DNA of 43,351 nt from Bacteroidota bacterium (GTDB lineage Bacteria; Bacteroidota; Bacteroidia; CAILMK01): assembly GCA_013288555.1 (NCBI GenBank), contig JABDBQ010000020.1, forward strand, positions 1 through 43,351, given 5' to 3'. Positions 1 through 30,019 of the stretch are shown here, piece after piece. The stretch's first letter is position 1. Each line of letters begins with the position of its first letter. The position numbers and the translations under genes are program-made. The notes under the pieces were generated by a model that made no database searches, was not told the DNA's origin, and was given only the letters and a program-made list of their open reading frames with translations.

Positions 1-3000
1 TATCTCTCTATCAATTACGGTAGCACCTGGACAAAAATTACGGGGTCTTTGCCGTCAGTCCCAAAGAACGTTATAGCGATCGATAAGAATTCTTATTCTG
101 GATTATATTTAGGTACGGATGCAGGCGTTTATTATATGGATTCAACTATGACCGATTGGACGACATTTTATAGCGGATTGCCGGTAGAACCTCGTATCCT
201 TGATTTGGCAATTTATTATGATGCATCCAATAGCGCAAATAACTTTATCAATGCTGGTTCTTTTGGCCGCGGTGCATGGCAATCTACCTTATTCAGCCCG
301 GTAAATCCCGTAGCTAAATTCGGTCTCAGCGCTTATGCCCAATGCCTGAATAATAATAGTTTTGCTTTTTTAGACAGCAGTACAATAGCATCAGGTTTCC
401 TTTCATGGTCTTGGGATTTTGGCGATTCGAAACATGCGTATACTGAAAACCCTACGCACACATATGCTGCAGCAGGTACATATACGGTAAAACTGATTGT
501 AACCAGTTCTTTGGGCACCACAAGTACAATATCGAAAACGGTAACAGTCTATCAGCAGGCAACTCCGGCATTTACTGTAAACACTTTAAATCAATGCTTA
601 TCTGTTAATAATTATTCATTTACAGATAAATCAACTGTAAGTTCCGGAACAATGAAATGGAGTTGGAATTTTGGCGATGGCTTAGGAACATCCACCTCCG
701 AAAATCCGTCATATTCATTTAAAAAATCTGGTACAGATACTGTAAAATTAACTGTTACCACAAATAATGGTTGTCCTGCATTGATTTCAAAAACAGTTAT
801 CGTATATCCTCAGCCTTCCGATTCATTTTCTGAAAACAGTGTAGGCCAATGTTTCAGAGGGAATAGTTTTGTTTTTACTAATAGTACGACTATTTCTTCA
901 GGGAGCATATCAAGTTGGAAATGGAAATATGGGAGCGGAGATTCTTCAGCTTCAAAATCACCAACATACTCCTATGCTAAGGCCGGGGTTTATAAAATCG
1001 TCCTTACTGCAGTATCTAATTTTGGTTGTGTGACAAAAGATTCGCAATCGGTATCAGTTTACCCACAGATCAACCCTTCATTTGCCATTAACGCCGCAAA
1101 TCAATGTTTTTCAGGTAATAAGTTTATTTTTACAGACAAATCAACCTTAAGTTCGGGCTCGATAACAACCTGGATATGGCAATTTGGAGATGGACATGAT
1201 ACTTCTACGGAAAACCCGGTTCATATTTTTGATAGTATTGGTAGTTTTAGAGTAAAAGTATTTATGACAACTGATAATTCCTGCTATGATACCATATCTA
1301 AAGTTGTGGCAGTGTATCCTCAACCAATGTCTTCATTTACCATAAAGACTGCATCTCAATGTCTTAAGTATAACAGGTTTTCTTTCTCTGATCAGAGTGT
1401 GGCAAGCAGCGGAAATGTTATTGTCGGGTGGAATTGGAAATTCGGGGACAGCACTTCATCTTCCTCTACAAATCCATTTCATACTTTCAGCAATTCAGGA
1501 ACTTATACTGTAAGCCTCATTGTATCAGATTCTAATAAGTGTACAGATTCTTCTTCTAAAACAGTAACCCTGCTTCCGAAAATTAAAGCGCAGTTTAAAT
1601 CAAATGACAGCGTTCAGTGTTTTGAAAGCAATAATTTTATTTTCACTGATCAAAGTATCCTGCCATCCGGTACAAATTATTGGGCCTGGAATTTTGGTGA
1701 CAATCAACATGCTATTAGTCAGAACCCGGCTCACGCATACAGCAATCCAGGGAGCTACAAAGTCAGCCTGATTGTAACTAATGCGGATGGGTGTAAGGAT
1801 ACGATTTATAAGACAGTAATAGTGCATTCAAAAATTACACCTAAATTTGGAGTTAGTACCTTAAAACAATGCCTCAAGGGCAATAATTTTGCAATAACAG
1901 ATAGCAGTTCTATTTCTTCAGGGGGTATTTCGTTAAGAAGCTGGAATTTCGGAGATGGAAGTTCTTCGACTTCTGCAAACCCGGACCATAGTTATAAAAA
2001 CCCAGGTATTTACCATATGACATTAACCCTGAAATCTGATCAGGGTTGCTACGATAGTACCAAAGTAACAGTTACAGTTAATCCAACTCCTTCACCTTTT
2101 ATTTTTGGAGATTCTGTTTTATGTGCTAAAAGCAATGCAAATTATCTTTCTGTCAATGATCCGGGAAGCAGTTATCTTTGGATCATATCTGGCGGTAAAA
2201 TAATTTCTAAAACAGACTCAACATACATAATAACTGCGAACTGGCCTGTATCTGATACTGGAAATTTAATTTTAATCGAAACAAATATTTACGGATGTGT
2301 AGATTCTGATTCCACGAGTGTTGTAGTGTACCCATTACCTACTGCAAAATTCGGAGCAGCAAACCATAATAGTGTTTGTGCGGGAACATCGCTTGCCTTT
2401 AGCGATTCAAGCATGAATGCATCTAAAATATTCTGGATTTTTGGAGATGGTGGCAATGATTCAAAATCCAATCCGGATCATGTTTACAATAATCCTGGGA
2501 AATACGCAGCGAGGCAGGTTGTAACTAACAGCTACGGTTGTGCTGATACAACTTCCAGAAACATTACCGTAAATGCCATTCCGGTCGCACATTGGAGTGC
2601 GGATTCATTAAATAAAGCAAAAATTGTTTTCGTCGCCCGGGATACGACATTGCCTTCAACTGATTATTCCTGGGATCTGGGTGATGGAACGAAACTTACA
2701 GGGCATAGGCTGACACATATTTTTTCTTCTAATAAGCAATACATTGTTAAACTTGTTGTTACAAGTGCAGCAGGATGTGTACAGGAGTTTGATTCCACTC
2801 TAAATGTTACGGTTTCTAATATTGCCCTGGAAAAAACAGGGCTTGATAATTTCAGCCTGAATATATATCCAAATCCATTTCATAACAGCACGAATGTTGA
2901 CTATGACCTCAGCGCTGATTCAAAGGTAAGAATTGTATTGTATGATCTGAACGGCAAAGTGATAAGCATAATTGCAGATCAGAAACAGGAAGCAGGCAAA

Positions 3001-3108
3001 CATAAGTTTGAAATTGATGGCGGCAAACTAGGCATGAGCCCCGGTAGTTATATTGTTAAAATATATGTAAATGATGCGTTTATAACTAAAAACATCGTAA
3101 AATTATAA
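1..3108 (+). CDS. T9SS-sorted PKD-repeat surface protein, 5' truncated by window edge
   Basis: The reading frame is open from base 1 with no start, so the N-terminus lies outside the window; the TTG at 49 is internal. The first ~100 residues resemble the last blade of a sortilin/BNR-type propeller (NYGSTWTKITG, LYLGTDAGVYY, SFGRGAWQS). Then come about nine PKD modules recognised by W-x-FGDG-like cores (WDFGDS, WNFGDG, WQFGDG, WKFGDS, WIFGDG, WDLGDG), plus one degenerate module without that core around bases 2090-2330. The last ~75 residues form a type A T9SS sorting domain (NIYPNPFHNSTNVDYDL, then LYDLNGKV and GSYIVKIY). The product is predicted to cross the outer membrane by T9SS and be cell-attached or released, perhaps binding glycans or proteins through the PKD array. 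It converges on the reductase gene 12 bp downstream. Domain calls are from motif reading; the role is unknown. Confidence 0.93.
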   Translation, partial: YLSINYGSTWTKITGSLPSVPKNVIAIDKNSYSGLYLGTDAGVYYMDSTMTDWTTFYSGLPVEPRILDLAIYYDASNSANNFINAGSFGRGAWQSTLFSPVNPVAKFGLSAYAQCLNNNSFAFLDSSTIASGFLSWSWDFGDSKHAYTENPTHTYAAAGTYTVKLIVTSSLGTTSTISKTVTVYQQATPAFTVNTLNQCLSVNNYSFTDKSTVSSGTMKWSWNFGDGLGTSTSENPSYSFKKSGTDTVKLTVTTNNGCPALISKTVIVYPQPSDSFSENSVGQCFRGNSFVFTNSTTISSGSISSWKWKYGSGDSSASKSPTYSYAKAGVYKIVLTAVSNFGCVTKDSQSVSVYPQINPSFAINAANQCFSGNKFIFTDKSTLSSGSITTWIWQFGDGHDTSTENPVHIFDSIGSFRVKVFMTTDNSCYDTISKVVAVYPQPMSSFTIKTASQCLKYNRFSFSDQSVASSGNVIVGWNWKFGDSTSSSSTNPFHTFSNSGTYTVSLIVSDSNKCTDSSSKTVTLLPKIKAQFKSNDSVQCFESNNFIFTDQSILPSGTNYWAWNFGDNQHAISQNPAHAYSNPGSYKVSLIVTNADGCKDTIYKTVIVHSKITPKFGVSTLKQCLKGNNFAITDSSSISSGGISLRSWNFGDGSSSTSANPDHSYKNPGIYHMTLTLKSDQGCYDSTKVTVTVNPTPSPFIFGDSVLCAKSNANYLSVNDPGSSYLWIISGGKIISKTDSTYIITANWPVSDTGNLILIETNIYGCVDSDSTSVVVYPLPTAKFGAANHNSVCAGTSLAFSDSSMNASKIFWIFGDGGNDSKSNPDHVYNNPGKYAARQVVTNSYGCADTTSRNITVNAIPVAHWSADSLNKAKIVFVARDTTLPSTDYSWDLGDGTKLTGHRLTHIFSSNKQYIVKLVVTSAAGCVQEFDSTLNVTVSNIALEKTGLDNFSLNIYPNPFHNSTNVDYDLSADSKVRIVLYDLNGKVISIIADQKQEAGKHKFEIDGGKLGMSPGSYIVKIYVNDAFITKNIVKL
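319..2090 (+). repeat. Tandem array of PKD-encoding units, ~255 bp period
   Basis: Seven consecutive coding units each begin with a Gln-Cys pair (codons at 340, 592, 847, 1102, 1357, 1615 and 1867), giving spacings of 252-258 bp, or 84-86 codons. Each unit has the order QC..N.F.F.D.S..SG, then a W-x-FGDG-like core, then NP.H.Y..PG.Y.V.L. The units are clearly related at protein level but diverged at DNA level, so this is an old duplication array and not a recent expansion. Confidence 0.85.
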
Positions 3109-7989: not shown

Positions 7990-8641
7990 TGATTACAAAT
8001 TCTCCTTTTATTGTGTGTTTTAGATAATATTCCAGGATTTCGGGCAGGGTGCCATTTACTGTTTCTTCAAATATTTTTGTGAGTTCCCTGGAAACCGAAG
8101 CCTTTCTTTCAACTCCAAAAGTAGCGATAAATTGTTCAAGAGTCTTGATGACCCTATAAGGAGATTCGTAAAACACCATAGTGCGAGTCTCTTCCTGGAG
8201 TGATTTTAATTTGGTTTGTCTGCCCTTTTTTTGCGGTAGGAAGCCTTCAAAACAAAAAGAAGAAGTTGGCAAACCTGATTTCACAAGGGCAGGAACAAAA
8301 GCCGTGGCTCCGGGCAGACATTCTACTTCAACACCTTGATCCAGACATGCTTTAACGAGGAGATATGCGGGATCGGAAATACCAGGCGTACCGGCATCAG
8401 AAACCATAGCGTAAGTCTTATCTTCTGTCAGATCAGCAGCAATTAGCGAGGCGGATTGATGCTCATTATGTTGATGAAAAGCTCTGAGTGTACTATGAAT
8501 TTCATAATGATTAAATAATTTACGTGTAACCCTTGTATCCTCGGCCAGAACAAGGTCTGCTTCTTTCAATACCCTTATAGCTCTCAAAGTGATATCTTCC
8601 AGGTTACCTATTGGCGTCGGAACAATGATGAGTTTGCCCAT
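7970..8641 (-). CDS. rsmI: 16S rRNA (cytidine(1402)-2'-O)-methyltransferase RsmI
   Basis: RsmI uses S-adenosylmethionine to 2'-O-methylate C1402 in the decoding centre of 16S rRNA. The 223-residue protein shows the tetrapyrrole-methylase fold motifs of the family: PTPIGNLEDITLRAIRVL at the N-terminus, LAEDTRVTRKLFNHY, VSDAGTPGISDPAYLLV, and ECLPGATAFVPALVKSGLP followed by FEGFLPQKKGRQ. It ends inside the start of lnt. This is shorter than the ~285-residue E. coli protein at the C-terminus, as is common in Bacteroidota. It is probably the first gene of the rsmI-lnt-DUF1573 transcript. Confidence 0.95.
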   Translation of the reverse strand: MGKLIIVPTPIGNLEDITLRAIRVLKEADLVLAEDTRVTRKLFNHYEIHSTLRAFHQHNEHQSASLIAADLTEDKTYAMVSDAGTPGISDPAYLLVKACLDQGVEVECLPGATAFVPALVKSGLPTSSFCFEGFLPQKKGRQTKLKSLQEETRTMVFYESPYRVIKTLEQFIATFGVERKASVSRELTKIFEETVNGTLPEILEYYLKHTIKGEFVIIVAGKN

Positions 8642-9398: not shown

Positions 9399-11567
9399 CT
9401 AATTCGTCGTCTTTCTACCAATGTCTACAAACATACCAATAAAAAAGGTACGGTAAGATGGCGGGATGATCGGGTAGGCTGTTTTTCCATCTAACGAATA
9501 GCGGTATCCATATATGTTTTTAAAATTGGGCACATCGGCAATGGATACAAATACAACTGTGAAATTATTCCATAACTGGGTAAGATAGCTATATCCAAGA
9601 CTGATATCTTTATAATCTGGGGTTGTTGTTTCCACAAATTCAGGACTGTATGATGGCCTTCCGGTAGCATATGTAAAAGTGGCGCTGATACTTGAATTGA
9701 TTGCAGGGAAGCTTTGCTTGTAAACGACAGACAGGGTATGTTTTGCAGCAAATGTGGGCATAACCTCATCCTCATATCTCCTGAATAATCGTTTGGTATC
9801 AAGATATGAATAAGAAATCCAGTAATCTACATGTTTAATGGTCTTTTTATCCCTCCAGAAAACGTCAATACCATCCGCATAACCGTAGCCGCTGTTATCA
9901 ACAATAGAATCCTGACCGATTCCTGACTGATATACCCTGGCCAGGTTATTATATTTCTTATAATACCCTTCCACCCTGAAAGTGCGGTCGTCATCCATAT
10001 ACTGGTAGTCTAGTATATAATGTGTGGCCAGTTCGTAAGTCATTCCCGGACTTTTATATAAATAAGGCTCTTGCGACAGGTATAAAAGGTCCCTGTCAGG
10101 TGTCTGGTAGAATTCTCCATAAGCTGCTGAAAGTTGTGTTTTGTCTCCTGTTTTGTAGGCCAGAGATAATCTCGGGGCCGCATTATATTTATTCAGAAAT
10201 TTGGAATACTCCGCTCTGGCCCCAATTCTTGCTGCCAGTTTTCTTGTAATAAATAAATCTGATTCAGCATATACAGCAGCATATTGCTCTTTCAGCGAAT
10301 TCTGATAAATACCAAAACTATCCGTAAAATTCTGAAGCTGCCCATCCACTCCGAATTTTATATCGGAACTCACATTTACAAGTGGATGGGTAACATAAAT
10401 TTTGGTTTGGGTTAATTCCTGTGTCCTGCCAAAAGGTATAAGAACTCCTGAAGTATCAAAATTGATATTATCATGGCTTTTGCTGTAAGATAGCCCGGTA
10501 TATAATTTCCAATTGTTAAAACAATCAGAATAGGTAGCATTGATATATAAGTTGTTGTTTTTTATATCAAAACGATCTTCAATCGGGGAATAGGTGAGGC
10601 TCGGAAAATTCAGTGTTGAGTGACTTAAACTATAAGTTGCATAAAATTTGATAATACCTGTTTCGGAAGTTTTTTGCCTGAAGATCAACGCGCCATTCCC
10701 GGTTTCAGGAGGTTTAATCCACTGGGTATTCTGGGGATTTAAAAAAAAGAAAGGCTGCAGGTTTGCGTAGCTGCCTTCAATACTTAACTGTGTATTTTTC
10801 CATCGTTGGGTATGGTTTGCTCCAAAACCCACAGCGGTAATACTTACACCAGTACTGGTTTGGTCAGCCAGGTCATCCGTGCTTAATACTAATGTAGAAG
10901 AAAGTGCCTGACCGTATAAAGCAGAATATCCACCAGTACTGAAAACAGTCCCTGTGAATAAAAATGGAGAAAACCTGCCCCGTTGTGGTACATCAGGAAT
11001 ACTGCTGAAATAAGGGTTTTGAACTACCATATCATCAATGATGGTTTTGGTTTCACCAGCATCACCGCCTCTTACAAAAAGACCTTCCTGTTCACCAATT
11101 TGCTGGGCACCCGGTAATGTTTTCATGGCGCCGGTTATATCACCTGAAGCGCCTGCTGTTGTAACAATATCAATGGGTTTTAAGATAGTAGCTCTTTTTT
11201 TATCACTAGCTTCAAAAGATCCTGCAGATATCACTACCTGGTTTCCTTCAGTTGCTTTTTCAATCAAGATGGCGTTTATAACCATATTTTTGTCGTTGAT
11301 ATTTATTTCAACCTCTTTTGTCTCGTAGCCAAGATAACTAAAGACCAAAGTTTGCTTTCCTTTTTCACTGGTTTTGAAACTGTATTCCCCTTTGTCATTA
11401 GTACTTGAACCGTCGTATGTTCCTTTTAAAAGGACACTTGCATAAGGAAGTGGGTTTTTTGTTTCATCGGATATTTTACCTGAAATATTGACCTGGCCCG
11501 AACTTTGAAAGGTACAAAGTAGTATGGCTAACAAAAAGGCGGAGCGGAAAAGAATTTTAAATCTCAT
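9399..11567 (-). CDS. TonB-dependent outer membrane receptor with carboxypeptidase-like regulatory domain
   Basis: This 722-residue protein has a signal peptide (ending near SSGQ). A CarboxypepD_reg-like beta-sandwich covers about residues 25-105 (ISGKISDETKNPLPYASVLL, DKGEYSF, FSYLGYETKEVEI). The plug domain covers about 115-235 (GAMKTLPGAQQIGEQEGLFV, RGGDAGETKTIIDDMVV). A beta-barrel rich in aromatic-alternating strands runs to the C-terminus. It imports an unknown ligand across the outer membrane with energy from TonB-ExbBD. No SusD partner is adjacent, so it is not a standard polysaccharide utilisation pair. A MarR regulator is transcribed divergently, and the palindrome between them suggests that this receptor is its target. 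Confidence 0.93.
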   Translation of the reverse strand: MRFKILFRSAFLLAILLCTFQSSGQVNISGKISDETKNPLPYASVLLKGTYDGSSTNDKGEYSFKTSEKGKQTLVFSYLGYETKEVEININDKNMVINAILIEKATEGNQVVISAGSFEASDKKRATILKPIDIVTTAGASGDITGAMKTLPGAQQIGEQEGLFVRGGDAGETKTIIDDMVVQNPYFSSIPDVPQRGRFSPFLFTGTVFSTGGYSALYGQALSSTLVLSTDDLADQTSTGVSITAVGFGANHTQRWKNTQLSIEGSYANLQPFFFLNPQNTQWIKPPETGNGALIFRQKTSETGIIKFYATYSLSHSTLNFPSLTYSPIEDRFDIKNNNLYINATYSDCFNNWKLYTGLSYSKSHDNINFDTSGVLIPFGRTQELTQTKIYVTHPLVNVSSDIKFGVDGQLQNFTDSFGIYQNSLKEQYAAVYAESDLFITRKLAARIGARAEYSKFLNKYNAAPRLSLAYKTGDKTQLSAAYGEFYQTPDRDLLYLSQEPYLYKSPGMTYELATHYILDYQYMDDDRTFRVEGYYKKYNNLARVYQSGIGQDSIVDNSGYGYADGIDVFWRDKKTIKHVDYWISYSYLDTKRLFRRYEDEVMPTFAAKHTLSVVYKQSFPAINSSISATFTYATGRPSYSPEFVETTTPDYKDISLGYSYLTQLWNNFTVVFVSIADVPNFKNIYGYRYSLDGKTAYPIIPPSYRTFFIGMFVDIGRKTTN

Positions 11568-11654
11568 GTAAAATTATTTTTTGTAAATGTATGTTTCTAA
11601 TAAGTTTAATGACGGTTTAATCGAACAAATATTTCAATTCTATATTCAATATTA

Positions 11655-12479: not shown

Positions 12480-13490
12480 ATGCTAAACGGTAAAGTTATT
12501 TTGGTTACAGGAGGGACGGGCTCCTTTGGGAAGAAATTCGTTCAGACAGTTTTGAAGGATTATCCGGACATTAAAAAACTTATTATTTTCTCTCGCGACG
12601 AGTTGAAGCAGTTTGAAATGGCCCAGGTTTATAATCCTGTTAAGGACAAAAGATTGAGATATTTTATCGGAGATGTAAGAGATAAAGAACGATTATATCG
12701 CGCTTTCGATGGGGTTGATATTGTGGTTCATGCCGCTGCATTGAAACAGGTACCCGCTGCGGAATATAATCCCATGGAATTTATCAAAACCAATATAATT
12801 GGTGCTGAAAATGTGATAGATGCCGCTATAGACAGGGGAATTTCAACTGTTATTGCGTTATCGACCGATAAAGCAGCAGCTCCTATCAATTTGTATGGGG
12901 CTACCAAATTGTGCTCAGATAAACTTTTTGTGGCCGCTAATAATTTTAAAGGGCCTCATAACATTAAATTTTCTGTGGTCAGGTATGGTAATGTAATGGG
13001 ATCGAGGGGTTCGGTTATTCCTTTTTTCATGGAGAAAAGAAATAATGGGACCATTCCGATAACACATAATCAAATGACCCGTTTCAATATTTCACTCGAA
13101 GAAGGCGTAAAACTCGTACTTCACGCTATTGAACATTCATGGGGTGGAGAGATATTTGTCCCTAAATTACCGTCTTATCACATTACTGATGTTGCAGAGG
13201 CCATCGCACCAGGTGTAAAAATTGAAATGGTTGGAATTAGACCAGGTGAAAAAATTCATGAAGAAATGATAACAGAATCGGATTCTTTCACTACAGTTGA
13301 TGCAGGTAAGTATTATATAATATTACCTCAAACTTCAATGTGGGACCAGGAAGAGTATTTAAAAACGATTAACGGGAAACGGGTTGAACCCGGGTTTAAA
13401 TATAACAGCGGATCGAATACCGAATGGCTCAATGTGAAAGAGATTAGAAATCTTATCAGAACATTTGTTGATCCGGATTTTAAAATTTAA
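12480..13490 (+). CDS. pseB: UDP-N-acetylglucosamine 4,6-dehydratase (inverting), pseudaminic acid pathway
   Basis: PseB carries out the first step of pseudaminic acid synthesis: 4,6-dehydration of UDP-GlcNAc with C5 inversion to the 4-keto sugar. The 336-residue protein is an extended SDR with the NADP loop TGGTGSFGKKF near residue 9. Active-site residues match the FlaA1/PseB pattern: Asp130-Lys131 (STDKAA) and Tyr139-x3-Lys143 (NLYGATK). HAAALKQVPAAEYNP is a family signature. It begins the nonulosonic acid locus and its stop is one base before the pseC start. The family assignment is firm; retaining homologues (such as CapD/FlmA) are a less likely alternative given pseC and pseI nearby. Confidence 0.95.
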   Translation: MLNGKVILVTGGTGSFGKKFVQTVLKDYPDIKKLIIFSRDELKQFEMAQVYNPVKDKRLRYFIGDVRDKERLYRAFDGVDIVVHAAALKQVPAAEYNPMEFIKTNIIGAENVIDAAIDRGISTVIALSTDKAAAPINLYGATKLCSDKLFVAANNFKGPHNIKFSVVRYGNVMGSRGSVIPFFMEKRNNGTIPITHNQMTRFNISLEEGVKLVLHAIEHSWGGEIFVPKLPSYHITDVAEAIAPGVKIEMVGIRPGEKIHEEMITESDSFTTVDAGKYYIILPQTSMWDQEEYLKTINGKRVEPGFKYNSGSNTEWLNVKEIRNLIRTFVDPDFKI

Positions 13491-13491
13491 T

Positions 13492-14643
13492 ATGATAAAA
13501 CCTATTCCATATGGGCGCCAGCATATATCTGATTTGGATATTCAGGCTGTAATTGAAACGCTACAATCGGATTTTTTGACTCAGGGGCCTAAGATTGCTG
13601 AATTCGAAGAAAAATTTGCTTCGTACATTGGTTCAAGATATGCAGTAGCCGTGTCAAATGGAACTGCGGCACTTCACTTATCCATGATGGCACTCGGTGT
13701 TGACGATGAAACGAATGTTATAGTTAGTCCAATAACTTTCGCTGCAGATGGCAACGGGGTACGCTATTGTGGTGGCAACGTTTATTTTGCTGATATTGAT
13801 CCGGAAACATATAATATAGATATCAATTCGGTAAAGAATCTTATTGAATCAATGCCTGAAGGATTTTTTAGCGGTATCGTAGTTGTTGATTTTGCAGGGC
13901 GGCCAATGGAACTTGACATATTACGGGCTTTGACGGAAGAAAATGATATGTGGATCGTTGAAGATGCATGCCATGCGCCTGGCGGTCATTTTTTCGACAT
14001 TAATGAAAAAAGGCATAATTGTGGAAGCGGATATTTTGCTGAGTTGGCGGTATTTTCCTTTCATCCGGTCAAACATATTGCCACAGGTGAAGGTGGGATG
14101 ATTACAACCAATAATACCCAGCTATATGAAAAACTTAAACTTCTTCGCACACATGGCATAACAAAAGATCCGGCAATTATGGATCAAAATCATGGCGGCT
14201 GGTATTATGAAATGATAGAATTGGGATATAATTACAGGATGCCGGATATACAGGCCGCTCTCGGGATATCTCAACTTTCAGTAGCTGATGCCAATATGCA
14301 AAGGAGGCAGGAATTGGCAAGGAGATACAATAAAGCATTTGAAAACACGCCTATAAAAGCGCCGAAAGTAATGACTAATGGCCTCCATGCTTATCATTTA
14401 TATGTTATTCAGGTAGAAAACAGGAAAGGATTGTACGATCATTTGCATGCCAACCAGATATATGCCCAGGTTCACTATGTACCTATGCATCTGATGCCTT
14501 ATTATAAAAATCTGGGATTTAAAGAGGGCGATTATCCAGTTTCCGAGGCCTATTACAACAAATGTCTGAGCCTGCCAATGTATGCATCTCTAACGGATGA
14601 ACAGCAAGATTATGTAATTGAAAAGGTATTGGAATTTGTTTGA
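13492..14643 (+). CDS. pseC: UDP-4-amino-4,6-dideoxy-N-acetyl-beta-L-altrosamine transaminase
   Basis: PseC is a PLP enzyme that transfers an amino group from glutamate to C4 of the PseB product. The 383-residue protein belongs to the DegT/DnrJ/EryC1 aminotransferase family: IPYGRQHISDLDIQAVIETL at the N-terminus, VSNGTAALHLSMMAL, EDACHAPGG, and the PLP lysine Lys194 in FHPVKHIATGEGG. I used the ATG at 13492, one base after the pseB stop. A start 27 nt earlier would overlap pseB and add a non-conserved MLIRILKFN. The tight junction with pseB and spsF-like genes supports a single operon. Confidence 0.95.
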   Translation: MIKPIPYGRQHISDLDIQAVIETLQSDFLTQGPKIAEFEEKFASYIGSRYAVAVSNGTAALHLSMMALGVDDETNVIVSPITFAADGNGVRYCGGNVYFADIDPETYNIDINSVKNLIESMPEGFFSGIVVVDFAGRPMELDILRALTEENDMWIVEDACHAPGGHFFDINEKRHNCGSGYFAELAVFSFHPVKHIATGEGGMITTNNTQLYEKLKLLRTHGITKDPAIMDQNHGGWYYEMIELGYNYRMPDIQAALGISQLSVADANMQRRQELARRYNKAFENTPIKAPKVMTNGLHAYHLYVIQVENRKGLYDHLHANQIYAQVHYVPMHLMPYYKNLGFKEGDYPVSEAYYNKCLSLPMYASLTDEQQDYVIEKVLEFV

Positions 14644-14646
14644 AAA

Positions 14647-15387
14647 ATGATGTTGGATAAAAAAGCAGGAATTATCACCCAAGCAAGGATGACAAGCACA
14701 AGGTTGCCCGGGAAAATACTGAAAGAGGTGAAGGGAAAGTCAATACTGGAATATCAGGTGGATAGGTTAAAGTGGAGTGGGATTCCGATGTATATTGCTA
14801 CTACAACAAACCTGACAGATGATATAATTGCAGATTTTGCCAAAGACCATAATGTTGTATTCAGCAGAGGATCAGAAGACAATGTACTTAGCAGATATTA
14901 TCAATGCGCTAAGGAAAATGAACTGGATGTTGTGATACGTGTAACATCAGACTGTCCGCTGATTGATGGATACCAGGTAAAAGAAGGCCTCGAGGCTTAT
15001 CTGAAAATGAATGACGAAAATCTCTATCTTTCAAATAGTATCGAAAGAACCTACCCAAGAGGATTTGATTATGAGATATTTTCATTTGGATTATTGGAAG
15101 ACGCATATAAAAATGCTGACAGAGTGCCTGAACTGGAACATGTGACACCTTATATCCGTTCAAACAGGTCAGGCAAAGTAAATGTCTATAACATATCAAA
15201 TACTGAAAATTATGGTAGTTTAAGGATCACACTCGATACACCCGAAGACTTTGAATTGATTTCAAGGTTGATTGATGACTATCATGCAGAAAAAATTGGA
15301 TATAAAGAAATAACAGAAATTCTTATCAACCACCCCGAACTGGTGGCTATAAATGCACATGTTGAGCAAAAGAAAGTAGATGCCTGA
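14647..15387 (+). CDS. SpsF-type cytidylyltransferase, likely CMP-nonulosonate synthetase
   Basis: This 246-residue protein belongs to the SpsF/COG1861 branch of the CMP-KDO/NeuA-like nucleotidyltransferases. The nucleotide-binding loop is QARMTSTRLPGKILKEVKG, followed by DNVLSRYYQCA and VIRVTSDCPLIDG. In a pse locus it most likely activates the sugar acid with CTP, the PseF step. It is not the classical PseF sequence type, so I leave the symbol empty. The start may be ATG at 14647 or the adjacent ATG at 14650. It overlaps the next gene by 8 nt. Confidence 0.85.
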   Translation: MMLDKKAGIITQARMTSTRLPGKILKEVKGKSILEYQVDRLKWSGIPMYIATTTNLTDDIIADFAKDHNVVFSRGSEDNVLSRYYQCAKENELDVVIRVTSDCPLIDGYQVKEGLEAYLKMNDENLYLSNSIERTYPRGFDYEIFSFGLLEDAYKNADRVPELEHVTPYIRSNRSGKVNVYNISNTENYGSLRITLDTPEDFELISRLIDDYHAEKIGYKEITEILINHPELVAINAHVEQKKVDA

Positions 15388-15961
15388 TTATAAATGTCTT
15401 ATAAGGAATAAGTTCAAAATCAATCAATATCAATTGATTCCTTTACGCGAAGAGGATATTTATAAAATTAAAAAATGGCGGAATGAACAGATGGATGTTC
15501 TTCGTCAGAAAAGAGTCCTGACTAATGCAGATCAGGGGAAATATTTCAAAGATTACGTCCTGCCTAATTTTTCTGAGGAATATCCCACGATGATCTTATT
15601 TAGTTTCCTTGATGAGAATAACAATCTCATTGGCTATGGGGGGCTTACAAATATAGATTGGGAAAGTAAACGGGCTGAGATTTCATTTTTAGTTGATACA
15701 AGCAGAATAACAGATAAAGAAATCTACAGGTCTGATTTTGGTTCTTTCCTTAAAATGATAAAGCAGGTTGCGTTTGATGATTTGAAATTTAATCGTTTGT
15801 TTACTGAAACATACGATATCAGGCCGCTGCATATTTCAATTCTAGAAGAAAATAATTTAAGGGCAGAAGGGCGCATGAAAGAACATGTTTATATTAATGG
15901 AAGCTATGTCGATTCTTTATTGCATGGCTGTTTAAAATCGTATTATGAATCTGAAAAATAA
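15380..15961 (+). CDS. PseH-like GNAT N-acetyltransferase
   Basis: This 193-residue protein has the GNAT layout: an early LIPLREEDIYKIKKWRNEQ segment, a central beta strand NNLIGYGGLTNIDWESKRAEI, and a C-terminal TETYDIRPLHISILEENNLR like the acyl-CoA region of RimJ/PseH proteins. The expected job in this locus is N-acetylation of the 4-amino group made by PseC, using acetyl-CoA. It overlaps the cytidylyltransferase gene by 8 nt and the following fusion gene by 17 nt, so translation is probably coupled across all three. Another acyl donor cannot be excluded from sequence. Confidence 0.82.
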   Translation: MPDYKCLIRNKFKINQYQLIPLREEDIYKIKKWRNEQMDVLRQKRVLTNADQGKYFKDYVLPNFSEEYPTMILFSFLDENNNLIGYGGLTNIDWESKRAEISFLVDTSRITDKEIYRSDFGSFLKMIKQVAFDDLKFNRLFTETYDIRPLHISILEENNLRAEGRMKEHVYINGSYVDSLLHGCLKSYYESEK

Positions 15962-17849
15962 AAGAGTTTTTGTAAGTGGCGGCGCGGGGGTAATTGGTAC
16001 GGCATTGGTGGAAAGACTTCAAAAGGAAGGTGCTGAAATATTTATCGGTGACCTGAAACCAAGACCTTCAGGCCTATCTAAAAATATAAGATACAGGCAG
16101 GGAGATCTTAATTTTATTACTTCGTTTGAAATTCTTGATTTTGACCCCGAAGTGGTTTTTCATCTTGCAGCAACTTTTGAAAGATCTACCGAAACTTATG
16201 AATTCTGGGAAGAGAATTATCACCATAACGTACAACTGAGCAATCATTTAATGACGTTATTAAAAGACAGCAAGTCCCTCAAAAAAGTAGTCTTTGCCTC
16301 GAGTTATCTCATTTATAAACCTGATCAGTATTATTTTGATAAACCTGCTGAAAAGGCAACCCGACTAAAAGAAACTGATCCAATCTATCCAAGAAATTTA
16401 TGTGGTACCGCTAAATTATTACATGAAATGGAGTTGTCTTTTTTGACTCATTTTCATGGCGACCAGTATAATACGGTATCTGCCCGGATTTTCAGAGTTT
16501 ATGGTAAGAATTCAAAGGATGTTGTATCAAGATGGATAAGAAGTCTCCTGAACGGAGAAACCTTGACAATATATAAACAAGAGGGCTTGTTTGATTATAT
16601 CTACGCTGATGAAGTGGCAGAGGGGCTATTCCGTCTTGCAACCAATGATGTAACAGGAATTATAAACCTGGGGCGAGATAATGCAAGAAGGGTATCTGAA
16701 GTTTTAGAGGTACTAAAACGGCATTTTCCGGATATTAAAACGATCCATTCTGACCTTGACATCCCATATGAAGGTTCCCAGGCAAATATGGAATACTTCA
16801 GATCAAAAACCGGATGGGCTCCGGAGAGAGACATAGAGGATACAATTCCTGAGATGATTGAATATGAAAAAAAGTCATCTGGCCTGAAGAATGCATACCC
16901 GATGGAATTCAATGTGTTTATAACAAGTATTGCTCAAAAAATTCCATTAATCAATGCCGTTAAAAATGCTTCTAGAAAAGCAGGAAATACAGGAATTGTT
17001 ATTGGAGGAGATATGAATTCTGAATGCATTGGGCAGTATTTTGTCGATCAGTTTTATCAAATGCCTTCCCTGAATAATCTGGATGTTGAATCGTTTATAT
17101 CATATTGTAAATCAAACAATATCAAAGCCATAATCCCAACGAGAGATGGGGATTTGAAATTCTTCACGAACCATAAGAGCATTTTGAATGAAAATGATAT
17201 TTCTGTAATGATTTCAGGCGAGGCGGCAATCGATATTTGTATCGATAAATTGAAATTTTATCAGGAACTTCAATCAATGGGTTATCCTGTTATTCAAACT
17301 GCAGAATCTATAAATGAGATTCAATCTGATAAAATTGTAGTTAAAGAAAGGTATGGAGCCGGATCGAAAAAAATCGGTGTCGGTGTTTCAAAAGTAGAAG
17401 CAATAGACGTTCAGCAAAATTTGTCAGACCCCATATTTCAGCCTTATATTGAGGGGAAGGAGTTCAGTATTGATGTTTATGTTGATAAAACAGGCAAATC
17501 TAAAGGCGCAGTAGTACGTAGCAGGGATATAATTGTCGATGGCGAATCGCAAATTTCCACTACCCTTAAAAATACAGAGTTAGAAAAGCTCTGTATTGCA
17601 ATGAGCGAAAAAATAGGCTTATACGGCCATTCTGTTTGGCAAGTGATTGTTGATCAAAATGGTCATTATTATATTATTGAGTGCAATAGCCGTTTTGGAG
17701 GTGCATCCACACTGAGTATTGAATCAGGACTAGATAGTTTTTTCTGGTTCTTGCTGGAGTCTTCCGGAACGGATATTTCTGAGTACCCATTTATCAGAAG
17801 TACCAAAGAAAAAAGACAGATCAGGTACAAATCAGATATGATAATATGA
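15945..17849 (+). CDS. Fused extended-SDR epimerase / ATP-grasp ligase in the nonulosonic acid locus
   Basis: This 634-residue protein contains two unrelated enzymes. Residues 1-310 are an extended SDR (NAD-dependent epimerase/dehydratase): dinucleotide loop VSGGAGVIGTALVERL, VVFHLAATFE, FASSYLIYKPD, and DYIYADEVAEGLFRL. The expected catalytic YxxxK is CxxxK: Cys153 (NLCGTAK) with Lys157 retained. Residues from about 322 to 634 are a CarB/PylC-like ATP-grasp domain: VFITS start, TRDGDLKFF, DKLKFYQEL, VKERYGAGSKKIGV (ATP loop), QPYIEGKEFSIDVYV and a metal-binding end IIECNSRFGGASTLSIESGL. ATP-grasp enzymes join a carboxylate to an amine or thiol through an acyl phosphate, so this protein may modify the sugar acid with an acyl or aminoacyl group. 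That role is inference. It overlaps the preceding gene by 17 nt and the following one by 4 nt (ATGA). Confidence 0.85.
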   Translation: MNLKNKRVFVSGGAGVIGTALVERLQKEGAEIFIGDLKPRPSGLSKNIRYRQGDLNFITSFEILDFDPEVVFHLAATFERSTETYEFWEENYHHNVQLSNHLMTLLKDSKSLKKVVFASSYLIYKPDQYYFDKPAEKATRLKETDPIYPRNLCGTAKLLHEMELSFLTHFHGDQYNTVSARIFRVYGKNSKDVVSRWIRSLLNGETLTIYKQEGLFDYIYADEVAEGLFRLATNDVTGIINLGRDNARRVSEVLEVLKRHFPDIKTIHSDLDIPYEGSQANMEYFRSKTGWAPERDIEDTIPEMIEYEKKSSGLKNAYPMEFNVFITSIAQKIPLINAVKNASRKAGNTGIVIGGDMNSECIGQYFVDQFYQMPSLNNLDVESFISYCKSNNIKAIIPTRDGDLKFFTNHKSILNENDISVMISGEAAIDICIDKLKFYQELQSMGYPVIQTAESINEIQSDKIVVKERYGAGSKKIGVGVSKVEAIDVQQNLSDPIFQPYIEGKEFSIDVYVDKTGKSKGAVVRSRDIIVDGESQISTTLKNTELEKLCIAMSEKIGLYGHSVWQVIVDQNGHYYIIECNSRFGGASTLSIESGLDSFFWFLLESSGTDISEYPFIRSTKEKRQIRYKSDMII

Positions 17850-18526
17850 AACGTGTTCTTGTCTTTGATCTTGATGATACTTTATATCCTGAAATAAGTT
17901 TTGTAAAAAGCGGGTTTAAAGCAGTTGCGGAGTTCCTTGAGAAGGAATATGACCTTCCTCTAAAAGAAAGTATTGCATTCATGCTCAAAGAACTTGAAAA
18001 CGGAAGGGGAGATATTTTTGATAAACTATTAAAGGTCAAAAATGTATATTCTGCTTCTTTGGTAAAAAAGTGCTTGTCGGTTTATAGGCTTCATAAACCG
18101 GAAATAAAACTCGATCCTGAAACATTGAAATGTTTCCAAAGATTTACTGATTATCCAAAATACATTATTACTGATGGTAATAAAATCGTGCAGCATAACA
18201 AGCTTGTTGCACTTGGATTATATTCAATGGTGAAACGATGTTTTATTACACATAGACATGGTGTTAACAAAGCAAAGCCTTCCCCATATTGCATGCATAA
18301 AATATGCGAACTGGAAAAAATCGAACCTTCTCAGGCTGTATACATAGGAGATAATCCAAAAAAAGATTTTGTAAACTTGAAACCTATTGGTTTTAAGACG
18401 ATTCGGATCTTACAGGGGATGTATAAAAATGAACCTGCGGATCAAAAATACAATGCTGATTGGTCGGTAAATTCGCTTAAAGAGATAAATGAATCATTGT
18501 TAAATACGATATTTGGCATTAATTAA
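17846..18526 (+). CDS. HAD-superfamily phosphatase
   Basis: This 226-residue protein carries the HAD motifs: motif I FDLDDTLYP (nucleophile Asp8, acid Asp10), motif II ITDGN, motif III lysine in NKAKPSPYCM, and motif IV YIGDNPKKDF. A helical cap lies between motifs I and II (about residues 17-95). It probably removes phosphate from a small molecule in the cytosol. The start overlaps the end of the ATP-grasp fusion as ATGA, so the two are likely translated together and may act on the same substrate. PseI makes pseudaminic acid directly and does not need a 9-phosphatase, so this HAD is an addition to the standard pathway. Confidence 0.85.
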   Translation: MKRVLVFDLDDTLYPEISFVKSGFKAVAEFLEKEYDLPLKESIAFMLKELENGRGDIFDKLLKVKNVYSASLVKKCLSVYRLHKPEIKLDPETLKCFQRFTDYPKYIITDGNKIVQHNKLVALGLYSMVKRCFITHRHGVNKAKPSPYCMHKICELEKIEPSQAVYIGDNPKKDFVNLKPIGFKTIRILQGMYKNEPADQKYNADWSVNSLKEINESLLNTIFGIN

Positions 18527-25357: not shown

Positions 25358-28300
25358 ATGAGGATTAAAGTATATTTATATTCGTTAACCATTACCCTAA
25401 TCGCTTCCTTATTCGTATTAAACATTGCAGCCGCGCAATGTTCTGGCTCAGATATAGCGGTTACATATTCCAGCAAATGTCTGCCAGCATTAGTTAGTTT
25501 TTATGTATCACCTGCTTTGCCAAAAGGTAGTATTTATTATTGGGATTTAGGAGATGGCAAAGGTCAGGTACTTGGTGCAGATACCTTTTATCATCAATAT
25601 TCTTCCGGGGGCAGCTATGGAATAACAGTTACTATTACAAAGCCTGATGGTACAAAATGCGTTATAACTAAACCAAAAGGATTTGTTTCATTTAACGCGC
25701 AGTTAGTTCCCGGTTTTTATGCTGATCAAACTATTTTCTGTTCCATACCTGCGATCATTTCACTTCATGATACTACTCAAAATTCGGTAACAAGAGATTG
25801 GTTTATCAATGGGAAATTATATTCAAATCATTCAGCTGACTTTAGTTTTTCAGATTCTACAGTTGGAAATTTGACAATTACTCTTATTGCGCATGATATT
25901 GCAGGGTGCAGTCAGAATCTGGTTAAACAAAACTATATTTCTTTTCCTCAGAGTATTCCTGTTAATTTTTGTAGTGTTATGACAATGGATACAAGTCACA
26001 CAAAGATTTCAGCAAAATATAAAATCGGCTTTGATACTTCCGGGTATAATATTTCAGAAATTGATTGGTCTTTTCCATCCGGTAACCCATCAACATATTC
26101 AGGTGTAAATCCTCCTTTAGTATCATATTCCAATATTTCATCATCGTATGATGTTTCAATTACTGTAAAAACTAATAGTGGATGCATTGTTTCATTTACA
26201 AAGAAAGGTTTGGTGGGAACATATTTTTCTGTTCCTAAATCGAAAATTTGTGCAAGTGACACAGGTATTATTTATTATGTATCGCCACACTCTGGTGGAC
26301 CAATAGGAGAATTTTATTCTTATGAATTAAACAACTCTGCTCAAATGAGATTTGCCAATGGATCTCAATATTTGGCCTTTTTCAATAATGCAGGCACAAT
26401 AAATTTTAAATGTTCTATCTTGTTTCATGGCTCTAATTGTCCTGATACACTTATAGTTCCTAACTTGTTTACAGTTCTCCCTCCAACAGCAAATTTTACA
26501 CTTAACCCAAGTGAATTATGTACTACACCTTCCAAAATGAATCTCAATGCTGCAAATGGGGCTTCTGGATCAAGCGGTAATAGCTATACCTGGCAGATAT
26601 TTGATAGCTCAATGCACCAATTGTCGGGATCACCAATTGGCCCTATTACTCAGTCAGACACATCGTTTATATTCAATCAAAATGGCATTTATAGTATAAA
26701 ACTAATATCATCTAATACAAATGGTTGTACTGACACAGTGTTTTCGCCTAATGTTTTAAGAGTTGGGACTCCAGATGCAAATTTTAAGTTTGTTAATGAT
26801 ACAATTTGCGCCGGCGATATTTTGAAAGCGATAAATTTGACAAAATTTAAGGATGCACCACATAATACGCTTAATTACAAGTGGTTGTTTTATGATATAG
26901 ACAGTGTTAACATTCAACAGGTTTCTTATTCTCGTTCTCCAAGTCTGGTTTTTAATATTCCTGGTATTTATAATTTAAGTTATTATATTCAAGCCAATTA
27001 CACGTGCACAGCTTTTAAAAACGTAAATAATGCAGTTTATGTCGATGGCATTATTGGAAATATCGTTCTGAGTGGAAATAAATCATGCGCCCCTGTTACT
27101 TATACTGCTAGTGCCGATATTAAAGCCAATTTTCCGAATAATAGTCCTCTAACTTACTTTTGGTCAGTTTCTCCCTCAGTAAATGCTTCCATTTCTAACC
27201 CAAATCTTGCTTCGCCGGATATTACTTTTAATAAGCAGGGAAACTACAGTATAATTCTTAAAATTTCGAATGGTTTTTGTTCTTCCATTATTCATAAAGA
27301 TAGCATTTCAATTGGTACAGTATCAAATTTCTTAATAGACTCTTTTTCATGTAGAAATATCGATATTCATCCACAAAATTTAAGTTCTTCGAATGCGAAC
27401 AGTTTTAAATGGAGTGTTGTTCCGGCAACTGGATTTTCAATTGACAATGATACTATAGTAAATCCGACAATTAAATTTATCAATCCTGGTTGTTATAGAG
27501 TTTATCTGCAAACTTCAGACAGGTCTCTTTCAAAATGTCCTGACACAATTTCGATGCCAATTTGTATCCATCAACCACCGGTCATCCGCAACGTTTATTC
27601 TCCTGATAGCTCTAGCCATTGTTCACCTAGGATCGATAGTTTTTATCTAAGTTCAATTTTCGGCAAATCTTTTTTCTGGGATTTTGGTGATAGTAGCTTT
27701 ACAACTAATTCGGATTCTCAGGTTACGCATGGTTATTATAATAATAACAGTGCAGGTTACACTGTGAAAACTGTAGCTATTGACAGCAATGGATGCACTT
27801 CGGATACTTTCGTTCTTAAAAATTATATCAAAATCTCTGGTCCAGAGCCGAGTTTTTCATTAATCTCAAATCAACTTTGTGATAGTGGGACTATTAATTT
27901 TGTTGATAATTCAAAGTATGTTTATAATTATTATTTCGTTTACGGAGATAATTCAGGCATAGACAATAACAGAATAGAACCACATTTTTATAAATACGAG
28001 GATTATTCAAAAGATAGCAATATTTATAACCCTACTATGTATGCATATGATGAAACAGGATGTCTGGCTTCAGCATCTGCCTCAGTAAAATTATATCGAC
28101 CTCCGATTCTTAAGATATCTTCAAATGATACGGTTGGCTGCATACCATATAAAGTGCAATTCCTTGACAGTACAAAATATGGCGTAAATTACTTTTGGAA
28201 CTTTGGAGATGGGAGCACTGACACTTCTTTTGCTCCAATGCATGATTTTACACAGGCATCAACTCCCGGGAATGATTATAAAGTAACCCTAACTGCTACA

Positions 28301-30019
28301 ACAGATAAAGGTTGCTCAGCTACATCATTAGCGTTGAATATTGTTGTCCATCCGGTATCAATACCTAAAATGACAATAATAGCTCCTAAAATTCTATGTT
28401 ATCAGGACTCCGTTCATTTTCAGGCTTCTACAAGTGCACCGGTAAGTAGATATCAGTGGAATTTCGGTGATGGAAATATTATTTCAGATACGTCTTCTTC
28501 ACTGGATCCGGTGTACCATTATACTTTTTCCGGTCATCATAAAGTAAAATTAACCGTCTATACCAAATTTGGTTGTTCAGCTCAAACACAGGATTCAACA
28601 TCAATTGATAACCTGGACTCTACATCTCCTGTTGCACCCAAAATTCATTTTATTACAGTTACCCCCTTGAATCAAATTAAAATTGTGTTTTCTAAAAGTT
28701 TATCCGTCAAATTTGATCATTACACAATATACAGATATCCGGGCCCTGATTCAATTTATGCGACTAATATTCAAAGTGATACAGTTTATTTCGATATTCC
28801 GCCATCGATTAACGTAAATTCGCAATCCTATGCATATTCTATAAAATTTTTCGATTTATGCGGATTGATTTCAAATTATAGTGTTCCTCAGCATTCTATT
28901 TATTTAGTAGTAAACAAATTTGGTAAAAATAAACTTCAATTGGTATGGAATAAATATACCGGATGGGACAGTGTGAAATATTATCAGATTTTCAGGATGA
29001 ATAAGGGAAAATTCGTTCAAATTGGAATCTCCGGCCCATTGGACAGTACCTACTTGGATACAAATCTTTGCCCTGGGAGGAATATTTATTATGTTAATGC
29101 GGTAAATTCGAATGGGTTATATTTTTCAGCAAGCGATACATCTTCAAATATTCCTGATTATCAATACCAAAGTACACCGTTGGTTTTGGCAAAGGCTACA
29201 GTATTGAACAATAAATTCATATATCTGAACTGGAATTTATCCCTTCAACCAAACTTTAAATTTTATTCTATTGACAGATATTCTAAAAATACAGGATGGA
29301 TTATGAATTTTGCAAATACTGTAAAGTCTTTTTTAATAGACTCTTCGGTAGATGTCTATAATAATGAATATATCTATCGTGTAAGCACTGTAGACGAATG
29401 CGGCGATATTAGTCCAATAAGCAATATTGGTACCTCAATACTCCTGAAAAGTATCGTAATAAATGATGCAAGGTATTTGAATTGGAATTCATATTCAAAC
29501 TGGAGCAATGGCGTATCAAGTTATCATGTTCAGATAATACAAGATAACGGCCAGTTCAAAGACGTTGCTACACTACCATCATCCGATACCACTTATTTTG
29601 ACAGTTCCGCACATTCAGAACTTGATGTCCCATCCTGCTACAGAGTATATGCTGTTGAAAATCCGGATATCAGTGGTAACATAGATACGAGTTTGTCGAA
29701 CATTACCTGCCCCAATCTTCCTGCTAGGATATTTATTCCTGATGCATTTACACCGAATGCTGATAGCGTAAACGATATTTTTATGCCAAAAGGGCTTTCG
29801 ATTATTAACAATACGGATATTAAAGCTCAGGAGTATGATTTCCGGATTTATGACAAATGGGGAGAGCTCGTTTTCGAGACCCATGATTTCAAGAAAGGAT
29901 GGGATGGGAAATACAATGGGAGTTCAGCACCTTCGGGGGTATATATATATATAATAGATGCTCAGGGGTTTAATGGTCAGAGATTCTATTTAAAGGGGAA
30001 TGTAACTCTTGTTAAATAG
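25358..30019 (+). CDS. T9SS type B-sorted PKD/FN3-like surface protein
   Basis: This 1553-residue protein starts with a signal peptide (LTITLIASLFVLNIAAAQ). PKD-like modules are scattered along the first two thirds: YYWDLGDGKG (~61), FFWDFGDSSF (~771), FVYGDNSG (~857), YFWNFGDGST (~944) and YQWNFGDGNI (~1031), with more degenerate Ig/PKD-like segments between. Residues ~1094-1450 look like four FN3-like modules (FDHYTIYRY, VKYYQIFRM, FKFYSIDRY, VSSYHVQII). The last ~97 residues are the CHU_C/type B T9SS sorting domain (IFIPDAFTPNADSVNDIF, YDKWGELVFETHDFKKGWDG, APSGVYIYII). The gliding-motility-associated C-terminal domain directs export and surface attachment, often noncovalent. It has its own promoter and is monocistronic. 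Function is unknown; adhesin or matrix protein is inference. Confidence 0.93.
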   Translation: MRIKVYLYSLTITLIASLFVLNIAAAQCSGSDIAVTYSSKCLPALVSFYVSPALPKGSIYYWDLGDGKGQVLGADTFYHQYSSGGSYGITVTITKPDGTKCVITKPKGFVSFNAQLVPGFYADQTIFCSIPAIISLHDTTQNSVTRDWFINGKLYSNHSADFSFSDSTVGNLTITLIAHDIAGCSQNLVKQNYISFPQSIPVNFCSVMTMDTSHTKISAKYKIGFDTSGYNISEIDWSFPSGNPSTYSGVNPPLVSYSNISSSYDVSITVKTNSGCIVSFTKKGLVGTYFSVPKSKICASDTGIIYYVSPHSGGPIGEFYSYELNNSAQMRFANGSQYLAFFNNAGTINFKCSILFHGSNCPDTLIVPNLFTVLPPTANFTLNPSELCTTPSKMNLNAANGASGSSGNSYTWQIFDSSMHQLSGSPIGPITQSDTSFIFNQNGIYSIKLISSNTNGCTDTVFSPNVLRVGTPDANFKFVNDTICAGDILKAINLTKFKDAPHNTLNYKWLFYDIDSVNIQQVSYSRSPSLVFNIPGIYNLSYYIQANYTCTAFKNVNNAVYVDGIIGNIVLSGNKSCAPVTYTASADIKANFPNNSPLTYFWSVSPSVNASISNPNLASPDITFNKQGNYSIILKISNGFCSSIIHKDSISIGTVSNFLIDSFSCRNIDIHPQNLSSSNANSFKWSVVPATGFSIDNDTIVNPTIKFINPGCYRVYLQTSDRSLSKCPDTISMPICIHQPPVIRNVYSPDSSSHCSPRIDSFYLSSIFGKSFFWDFGDSSFTTNSDSQVTHGYYNNNSAGYTVKTVAIDSNGCTSDTFVLKNYIKISGPEPSFSLISNQLCDSGTINFVDNSKYVYNYYFVYGDNSGIDNNRIEPHFYKYEDYSKDSNIYNPTMYAYDETGCLASASASVKLYRPPILKISSNDTVGCIPYKVQFLDSTKYGVNYFWNFGDGSTDTSFAPMHDFTQASTPGNDYKVTLTATTDKGCSATSLALNIVVHPVSIPKMTIIAPKILCYQDSVHFQASTSAPVSRYQWNFGDGNIISDTSSSLDPVYHYTFSGHHKVKLTVYTKFGCSAQTQDSTSIDNLDSTSPVAPKIHFITVTPLNQIKIVFSKSLSVKFDHYTIYRYPGPDSIYATNIQSDTVYFDIPPSINVNSQSYAYSIKFFDLCGLISNYSVPQHSIYLVVNKFGKNKLQLVWNKYTGWDSVKYYQIFRMNKGKFVQIGISGPLDSTYLDTNLCPGRNIYYVNAVNSNGLYFSASDTSSNIPDYQYQSTPLVLAKATVLNNKFIYLNWNLSLQPNFKFYSIDRYSKNTGWIMNFANTVKSFLIDSSVDVYNNEYIYRVSTVDECGDISPISNIGTSILLKSIVINDARYLNWNSYSNWSNGVSSYHVQIIQDNGQFKDVATLPSSDTTYFDSSAHSELDVPSCYRVYAVENPDISGNIDTSLSNITCPNLPARIFIPDAFTPNADSVNDIFMPKGLSIINNTDIKAQEYDFRIYDKWGELVFETHDFKKGWDGKYNGSSAPSGVYIYIIDAQGFNGQRFYLKGNVTLVK

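Follow-up and report, generated by a model that had tools for sequence, protein, structure and literature searches.

The window (the whole 43,351-nucleotide stretch of DNA that was analysed) contains a forward-strand operon for pseudaminic acid (Pse) in the order PseB, PseC, cytidylyltransferase, GNAT, SDR-ATP-grasp fusion, HAD and PseI. The window-type GNAT family is referred to here as wGNAT and the window-type SDR half of the fusion as wSDR, and L-numbers denote surveyed loci. The features are as follows.

12480..13490, + strand: PseB, UDP-GlcNAc 4,6-dehydratase (inverting); TIGR03589, 531 bits (cut-off 407.75)
13492..14643, + strand: PseC, 4-aminotransferase; TIGR03588, 457 bits (cut-off 423.5)
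14647..15387, + strand: cytidylyltransferase, probable CMP-Pse synthetase, not of the TIGR03584 PseF type; PF02348, 76 bits; TIGR03584 unmatched
15380..15961, + strand: wGNAT, PseH-like GNAT fold lacking the CoA P-loop, proposed to replace PseG functionally; PF13420, 64 bits; PseH model, 20.7 bits; loop missing; AlphaFold pLDDT 96; complementary to PseG
15945..16880, + strand: wSDR half of the fusion, Rossmann GxxGxxG kept, Tyr of YxxxK replaced by Cys153 (codon 16401-16403); PF01370, 96 bits; alignments
16902..17849, + strand: ATP-grasp half of the fusion, a carboxylate-amine ligase domain of PylC/PRK12767-like type, catalytic residues conserved; PF21360 and PF02655; K/E/N/R invariant in 31/31 relatives; PDB 2pn1 by sequence and fold
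17846..18526, + strand: HAD phosphatase, constant partner of the ATP-grasp; PF00702, TIGR02253-like; catalytic residues Asp, Thr and Lys kept; occurs as a fusion with a distant ATP-grasp in Lachnospiraceae and one Clostridiaceae genome
18575..19615, + strand: PseI, pseudaminic acid synthase; TIGR03586, 481 bits (cut-off 340.25)

Very large ORFs occur elsewhere in the window (25358-30019, 35162-41146 and 49-3108), and two translated ones look by eye like repetitive surface or adhesin-type proteins.

The fusion gene is a single unbroken frame of 634 aa at 15945-17849 (+) in which an extended SDR is followed by a PylC/CPS-like ATP-grasp domain, as a preliminary description of this DNA had claimed. 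Pfam places Epimerase (PF01370) at residues 8-243 (E 3e-27), PylC-like_N (PF21360) at 325-421 and ATP-grasp_3 (PF02655) at 432-586, and NCBIfam gives a PRK12767-like match at 323-610. At its upstream end 17 bases are shared with the wGNAT gene, and at its downstream end 4 bases with the HAD gene; the earlier placement of the fusion between an acetyltransferase gene and pseI with overlapping ends did not mention this HAD gene, which separates the fusion from pseI. Full-length homologues (44-57% identity) were found in ten other loci from diverse phyla, so the fusion is no assembly accident. The predicted structure of the whole fusion has a pTM of 0.55, and the interdomain contacts in that model carry no information. 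The fusion is real and belongs to the Pse pathway, a membership that the preliminary description had proposed and that the survey of ATP-grasp homologues bore out.

The surveys overall covered ~1,600 genomes. A profile of the ATP-grasp half searched against about 85,000 species genomes returned 39 loci, 31 of them strong, spread over Bacteroidota, Bacillota, Chlamydiota, Nitrospirota, Pseudomonadota, Desulfobulbaceae, Bdellovibrionales, Campylobacterota and one archaeon. These homologues sit in nonulosonate loci and not mostly outside sugar-acid loci, the outcome that the preliminary description had named as refuting its reading, and nearly all complete ATP-grasp loci also hold the HAD and PseI or other nonulosonate genes. 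Two locus types were distinguished. Type A loci combine a stand-alone ATP-grasp with HAD and PseG, and no GNAT match was found inside the 14 PseG-bearing loci; type B loci combine wGNAT, an ATP-grasp (often wSDR-fused) and HAD, and PseG was not found in them. Whole-genome searches recovered PseG over cut-off in 14 of the 31 genomes, every one of type A, and in none of the type B genomes. True PseH scored over cut-off in only 2/31 genomes, on other contigs adjoining second PseG genes. A single clade-bound origin of the two types was rejected, as the ATP-grasp, HAD and PseI trees need 5-7 label changes, at least 2-4 of them on supported branches; judged from these trees, in which many branches are weak, switches between types A and B probably recur.

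Several loci depart from this scheme. L014, from the archaeon Methanolobus, has an ATP-grasp with neither PseG nor wGNAT; its other genes include a HAD, a PseH-like GNAT (67 bits) and an inositol/UDP-GlcNAc dehydrogenase-type oxidoreductase. Another acetyltransferase (PF02522) lies near the ATP-grasp in L026. In Bdellovibrionales, L018:9212-10954 encodes a cytidylyltransferase-ATP-grasp fusion of 580 aa, a further fusion partner of the ATP-grasp. Chlamydiota operons (L083:9467-13350, L089:6365-10259, L082 and L088) carry wGNAT, wSDR-ATP-grasp, HAD and a cytidylyltransferase; PseB, PseC and PseI were not found within 18-20 kb around them, and all four flank an ORF of ~911-927 aa with CoA-ligase and GNAT domains (Pfam in L083 and L089). 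Genes for an aldo/keto reductase, a cytidylyltransferase and a class III aminotransferase form a sub-module seen repeatedly in Pse loci (L022 and L040, Pfam-checked; L051, L054 and L057, by position), which may make a further amino-Pse variant.

The best solved relative of the ATP-grasp half, by sequence and by fold, is PDB 2pn1, and K119, K151, E263, N265 and R267 (domain numbering) are invariant across the 31 relatives. Because its loci, the stand-alone ones included, are without PseH, the ATP-grasp most likely stands in for PseH and would join a carboxylic acid to the sugar 4-amino group; the preliminary description had likewise suggested ligation of an acid to a sugar amine, and the group added is most likely something other than acetyl. 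The accompanying HAD retains DxD, Thr, Lys and the acidic motif IV (in 35 aligned rows, D8, D10, T109 and K144 at 100%, D169 and D174 at 97%). Distant ATP-grasp-HAD fusions were found in Lachnospiraceae and one Clostridiaceae genome (L042-L048, about 9970-11630 in the long loci), and their loci encode a DegT aminotransferase; several add a PglF-like 4,6-dehydratase, those checked for it have a Bac_transf initiating sugar transferase, and no NeuB match was found in these loci. The shared context is thus a UDP-4-amino-4,6-dideoxy sugar and not a nine-carbon acid, in favour of acylation at N4 ahead of the PseI step, and the conserved gene company points to a UDP-4-amino sugar as the acceptor of the ATP-grasp. 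The Lachnospiraceae and Clostridiaceae fusion loci possibly make acylated bacillosamine-type sugars; other acetyltransferase families occur in some Lachnospiraceae loci (a GNAT in L042, a hexapeptide protein in L043).

Our best guess for the acyl acid is glycerate or another small hydroxy acid, given the phosphatase partner, the frequent methyltransferases and the glyceroyl-type groups known on Pse. Methyltransferases (MT1, TylF-like) lie in 14/31 ATP-grasp loci, none lies in the window operon and a homology search found them in 0/6 wGNAT-only loci; their presence in ATP-grasp loci hints at an O-methylatable hydroxy acid. Tannerella forsythia Pse carries N-glyceroyl at C7 (Pse5Am7Gra; PMC6388019, PMC6120980), added by a gene stated as unknown by the authors (PMC6120980), and Campylobacter Pse carries 2,3-di-O-methylglyceroyl at C5 (PMC3068675).

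In the wSDR half, the catalytic Tyr of YxxxK is replaced by Cys or Thr in 22/22 sequences while the Lys is kept, the GxxGxxG glycines G12, G15 and G18 are invariant and the acidic residue after strand 2 is retained. The fold matches NDP-sugar epimerases, and the window and Hymenobacter sequences are 54% identical. On these alignments wSDR is not a normal epimerase, and the epimerising role assigned to it by the preliminary description is not supported, the Tyr being replaced in every relative seen. wSDR occurs only together with an ATP-grasp of the window kind, with which it is optional, and was seen only in PseG-less loci. That it is a re-tooled active enzyme, an epimerase or NAD-dependent enzyme using Thr or Cys in place of Tyr that, ahead of ligation, alters UDP-sugar stereochemistry or produces the acyl acid, would fit its strong conservation (with GxxGxxG, many unique motifs and the Lys of the active site retained) and its fold; this seems doubtful, however, with the catalytic Tyr absent throughout and seven loci (L031, L039, L087, L090, L091, L092 and L095) that combine wGNAT and ATP-grasp without wSDR.

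The preliminary description took the gene upstream of the fusion for the pathway acetyltransferase. wGNAT does have a GNAT fold (pLDDT 96.4 for the structure model), with the SpeG and PseH (4ri1) structures among its matches, but it scores only 20.7 bits against the PseH model TIGR03585 (cut-off 93.1), and no PseH was found in the window operon. The CoA-binding loop (Q/R-x-x-G-x-G/A) after strand 4 is absent at its position in 23/23 wGNAT sequences and the typical GNAT Asn and Tyr positions are altered, while RGKG-type loops are present in most partner GNATs of the same loci. An acid-base mechanism is not evident from the wGNAT alignment, and to our knowledge no GNAT-fold hydrolase of nucleotide sugars has been described. 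In L050-L052, L054 and L055 an ordinary GNAT lies next to wGNAT or in one protein with it (as a fusion of wGNAT with a PseH-type GNAT in L050 and L052), just as PseG is fused to a PseH-type GNAT in the canonical loci L058 (505 aa) and L059 (487 aa). Fusions of wGNAT to ATP-grasp occur in L031, L039, L087, L091, L092 and L095, and in L053 a formyltransferase (10505-11371; PF00551/PF02911), which suggests N-formyl Pse, occupies the PseH position as the only other acylating candidate beside wGNAT. Each of these arrangements thus pairs one candidate for UDP release (PseG or wGNAT) with one acyl candidate (PseH, formyltransferase or ATP-grasp). Identity of wGNAT with PseH was dropped in view of the missing CoA loop, the low PseH score and the co-occurrence with other acyl enzymes.

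The distribution of wGNAT places it in the PseG slot. Separate searches of 297 Bacteroidota genomes for PseI, PseG and wGNAT, a control for the background rate of PseG absence, identified PseI over cut-off in 41 genomes, 32 with PseG and 9 without. wGNAT was present in all nine PseG-less genomes (217-290 bits; next match 81 bits) and in 0/32 of those with PseG. So exact a match would have a chance of 1/C(41,9), about 3e-9, if genomes were independent, which they are not: the sampled genomes are related within clades and the counts are not independent events. The six Flavobacteriaceae among these nine were found via the absence of PseG and not via wGNAT, and they are therefore a real test of the complementarity. 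Both states occur within each of two genera (L050 and L052-L055 versus L057; L028 versus L056), and L051 has the same gene order as L057 with wGNAT where PseG stands, differing by one added ORF after pseC and some accessory genes before pseI. Among 234 Chlamydiota genomes 19 carry wGNAT, and PseG was found in none of the 16 carriers tested; the window genome, a MAG of 67.5% completeness, likewise gave no TIGR03590 PseG match. The module of L021 is flanked by what is left of a pseG-pseH gene, in two pieces that each contain a stop: a PseG remnant at 8111-8446 (E 1.7e-20), directly before wGNAT, and a PseH remnant at 13517-13777 (E 2e-12), directly before pseI. Most simply read, the module made pseG and pseH dispensable in L021.

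From these patterns wGNAT, a more surprising element than the fusion, appears to be a replacement of PseG across several phyla. That it is instead still an acyltransferase, a diverged PseH, with UDP removed by an unrelated, unlinked enzyme or not needing removal and with ATP-grasp, HAD and wSDR as later decoration, would agree with its fold, the PseH structure among its matches and the Pfam Acetyltransf_4 match, but we regard this as unlikely in view of the lost loop and altered Asn and Tyr positions, the ordinary GNAT or formyltransferase beside it and the exact complementarity to PseG in the 297-genome sample. Two other proteins of the module were considered for the PseG role and dropped. 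wSDR, acting for example by NAD-assisted elimination-hydration at C1, would match the restriction of wSDR to PseG-less loci, yet the six Flavobacteriaceae and several wGNAT-ATP-grasp loci are without both PseG and wSDR, and a search of 20 genomes did not find wSDR in the genomes of L031 or L039, making this assignment very improbable. Nucleotides and sugar phosphates are among the substrates of HAD phosphatases, and the HAD gives TIGR02253/YjjG-like scores; removal of the nucleotide by the HAD, with wGNAT as an accessory protein, is nevertheless hard to credit, since ATP-grasp loci that carry PseG have the HAD as well, and it was not found by homology in the wGNAT-only loci L050-L055. For wGNAT itself we tentatively propose, at a little under even odds, a UDP-sugar hydrolase on an acetyltransferase fold: a PseH-like ancestor would have lost CoA binding and come to substitute non-orthologously for PseG in Bacteroidota, Chlamydiota, Bacillota and others, where it would combine freely with PseH, formyltransferase or ATP-grasp and HAD to yield Pse with different C7 substituents.

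The best reading of the locus is a variant Pse pathway in which two core enzymes have non-orthologous replacements, one of these being possibly a GNAT-fold UDP-sugar hydrolase. From gene content, domains and motifs, and replacement patterns we infer the reactions of ATP-grasp, HAD, wGNAT and wSDR, and we give the whole variant route (ATP-grasp with HAD for PseH, wGNAT for PseG, wSDR as substrate presenter) a probability of roughly 0.62. PseB and PseC would form UDP-4-amino-4,6-dideoxy-AltNAc; the HAD would free a carboxylic acid, at best guess the hydroxy acid named above, from a phosphorylated precursor; and the ATP-grasp would couple this acid via an acyl-phosphate to the 4-amino group, which becomes C7 of the final Pse. 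wSDR, which keeps NAD- and NDP-sugar-binding features, would most likely bind the UDP-amino-sugar and present it to the ligase with no classical epimerisation. The P-loop-less wGNAT, in place of PseG, would then release UDP, and PseI and the CTP-transferase would complete CMP-activated pseudaminic acid. The earlier reading was accordingly upheld for the ligase half and not for epimerisation or for the neighbour as acetyltransferase; the HAD partner and the absence of PseG were not mentioned there.

If true, this route explains genomes that seemingly lack PseG, and a family now annotated as acetyltransferase gets re-annotated; hydrolysis by a GNAT-fold enzyme would add a new chemistry to a very large fold family. 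Non-acetyl N-acylation of nonulosonic acids gains concrete candidate genes in the ATP-grasp and HAD pair, and the enzymes that install unusual groups on these sugars, such as the C7 N-glyceroyl of Tannerella, have been reported as unknown (PMC6120980). Replacement of PseG by a GNAT or of PseH by an ATP-grasp was not found in the open-access papers searched, which is no proof of novelty.

Compared with the canonical CMP-Pse pathway (PseB-C-H-G-I-F), the window has clear equivalogs of PseB, PseC and PseI over curated cut-offs and a cytidylyltransferase, but in place of PseH and PseG it has wGNAT, wSDR-ATP-grasp and HAD. The ATP-grasp half shares domain order and conserved catalytic residues with the PylC/PRK12767 'carbamoyl phosphate synthase-like' ligases (PDB 2pn1), from which it differs by its fusion to a Tyr-less SDR, its HAD partner, its tie to nonulosonate loci and its scores below the PRK12767 curated cut-offs. 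wGNAT resembles PseH (TIGR03585; PDB 4ri1) in having a GNAT fold, in length and in its place in the operon near PseI, but it is without the CoA loop, scores far below the PseH cut-off and stands beside or fused to genuine acyl enzymes. With PseG (TIGR03590) it shares the slot, parallel fusions to PseH-type GNAT and mutual exclusion, although there is no sequence similarity and the fold class differs, PseG having a glycosyltransferase-B-like fold and wGNAT a GNAT fold. T. forsythia has annotated pseH and pseG and may therefore not use a window-type module. Its Pse5Am7Gra is similar as a Bacteroidota Pse with N-glyceroyl at C7 (PMC6388019, PMC6120980). The Shewanella gene sfmE (SO_3265) is an ATP-grasp gene tied by mutant phenotype to a modified nonulosonic acid in flagellin (PMC3765264); judged by its description, it is set apart from the window fusion as a 412-aa ATP-grasp_4 protein in another operon context.
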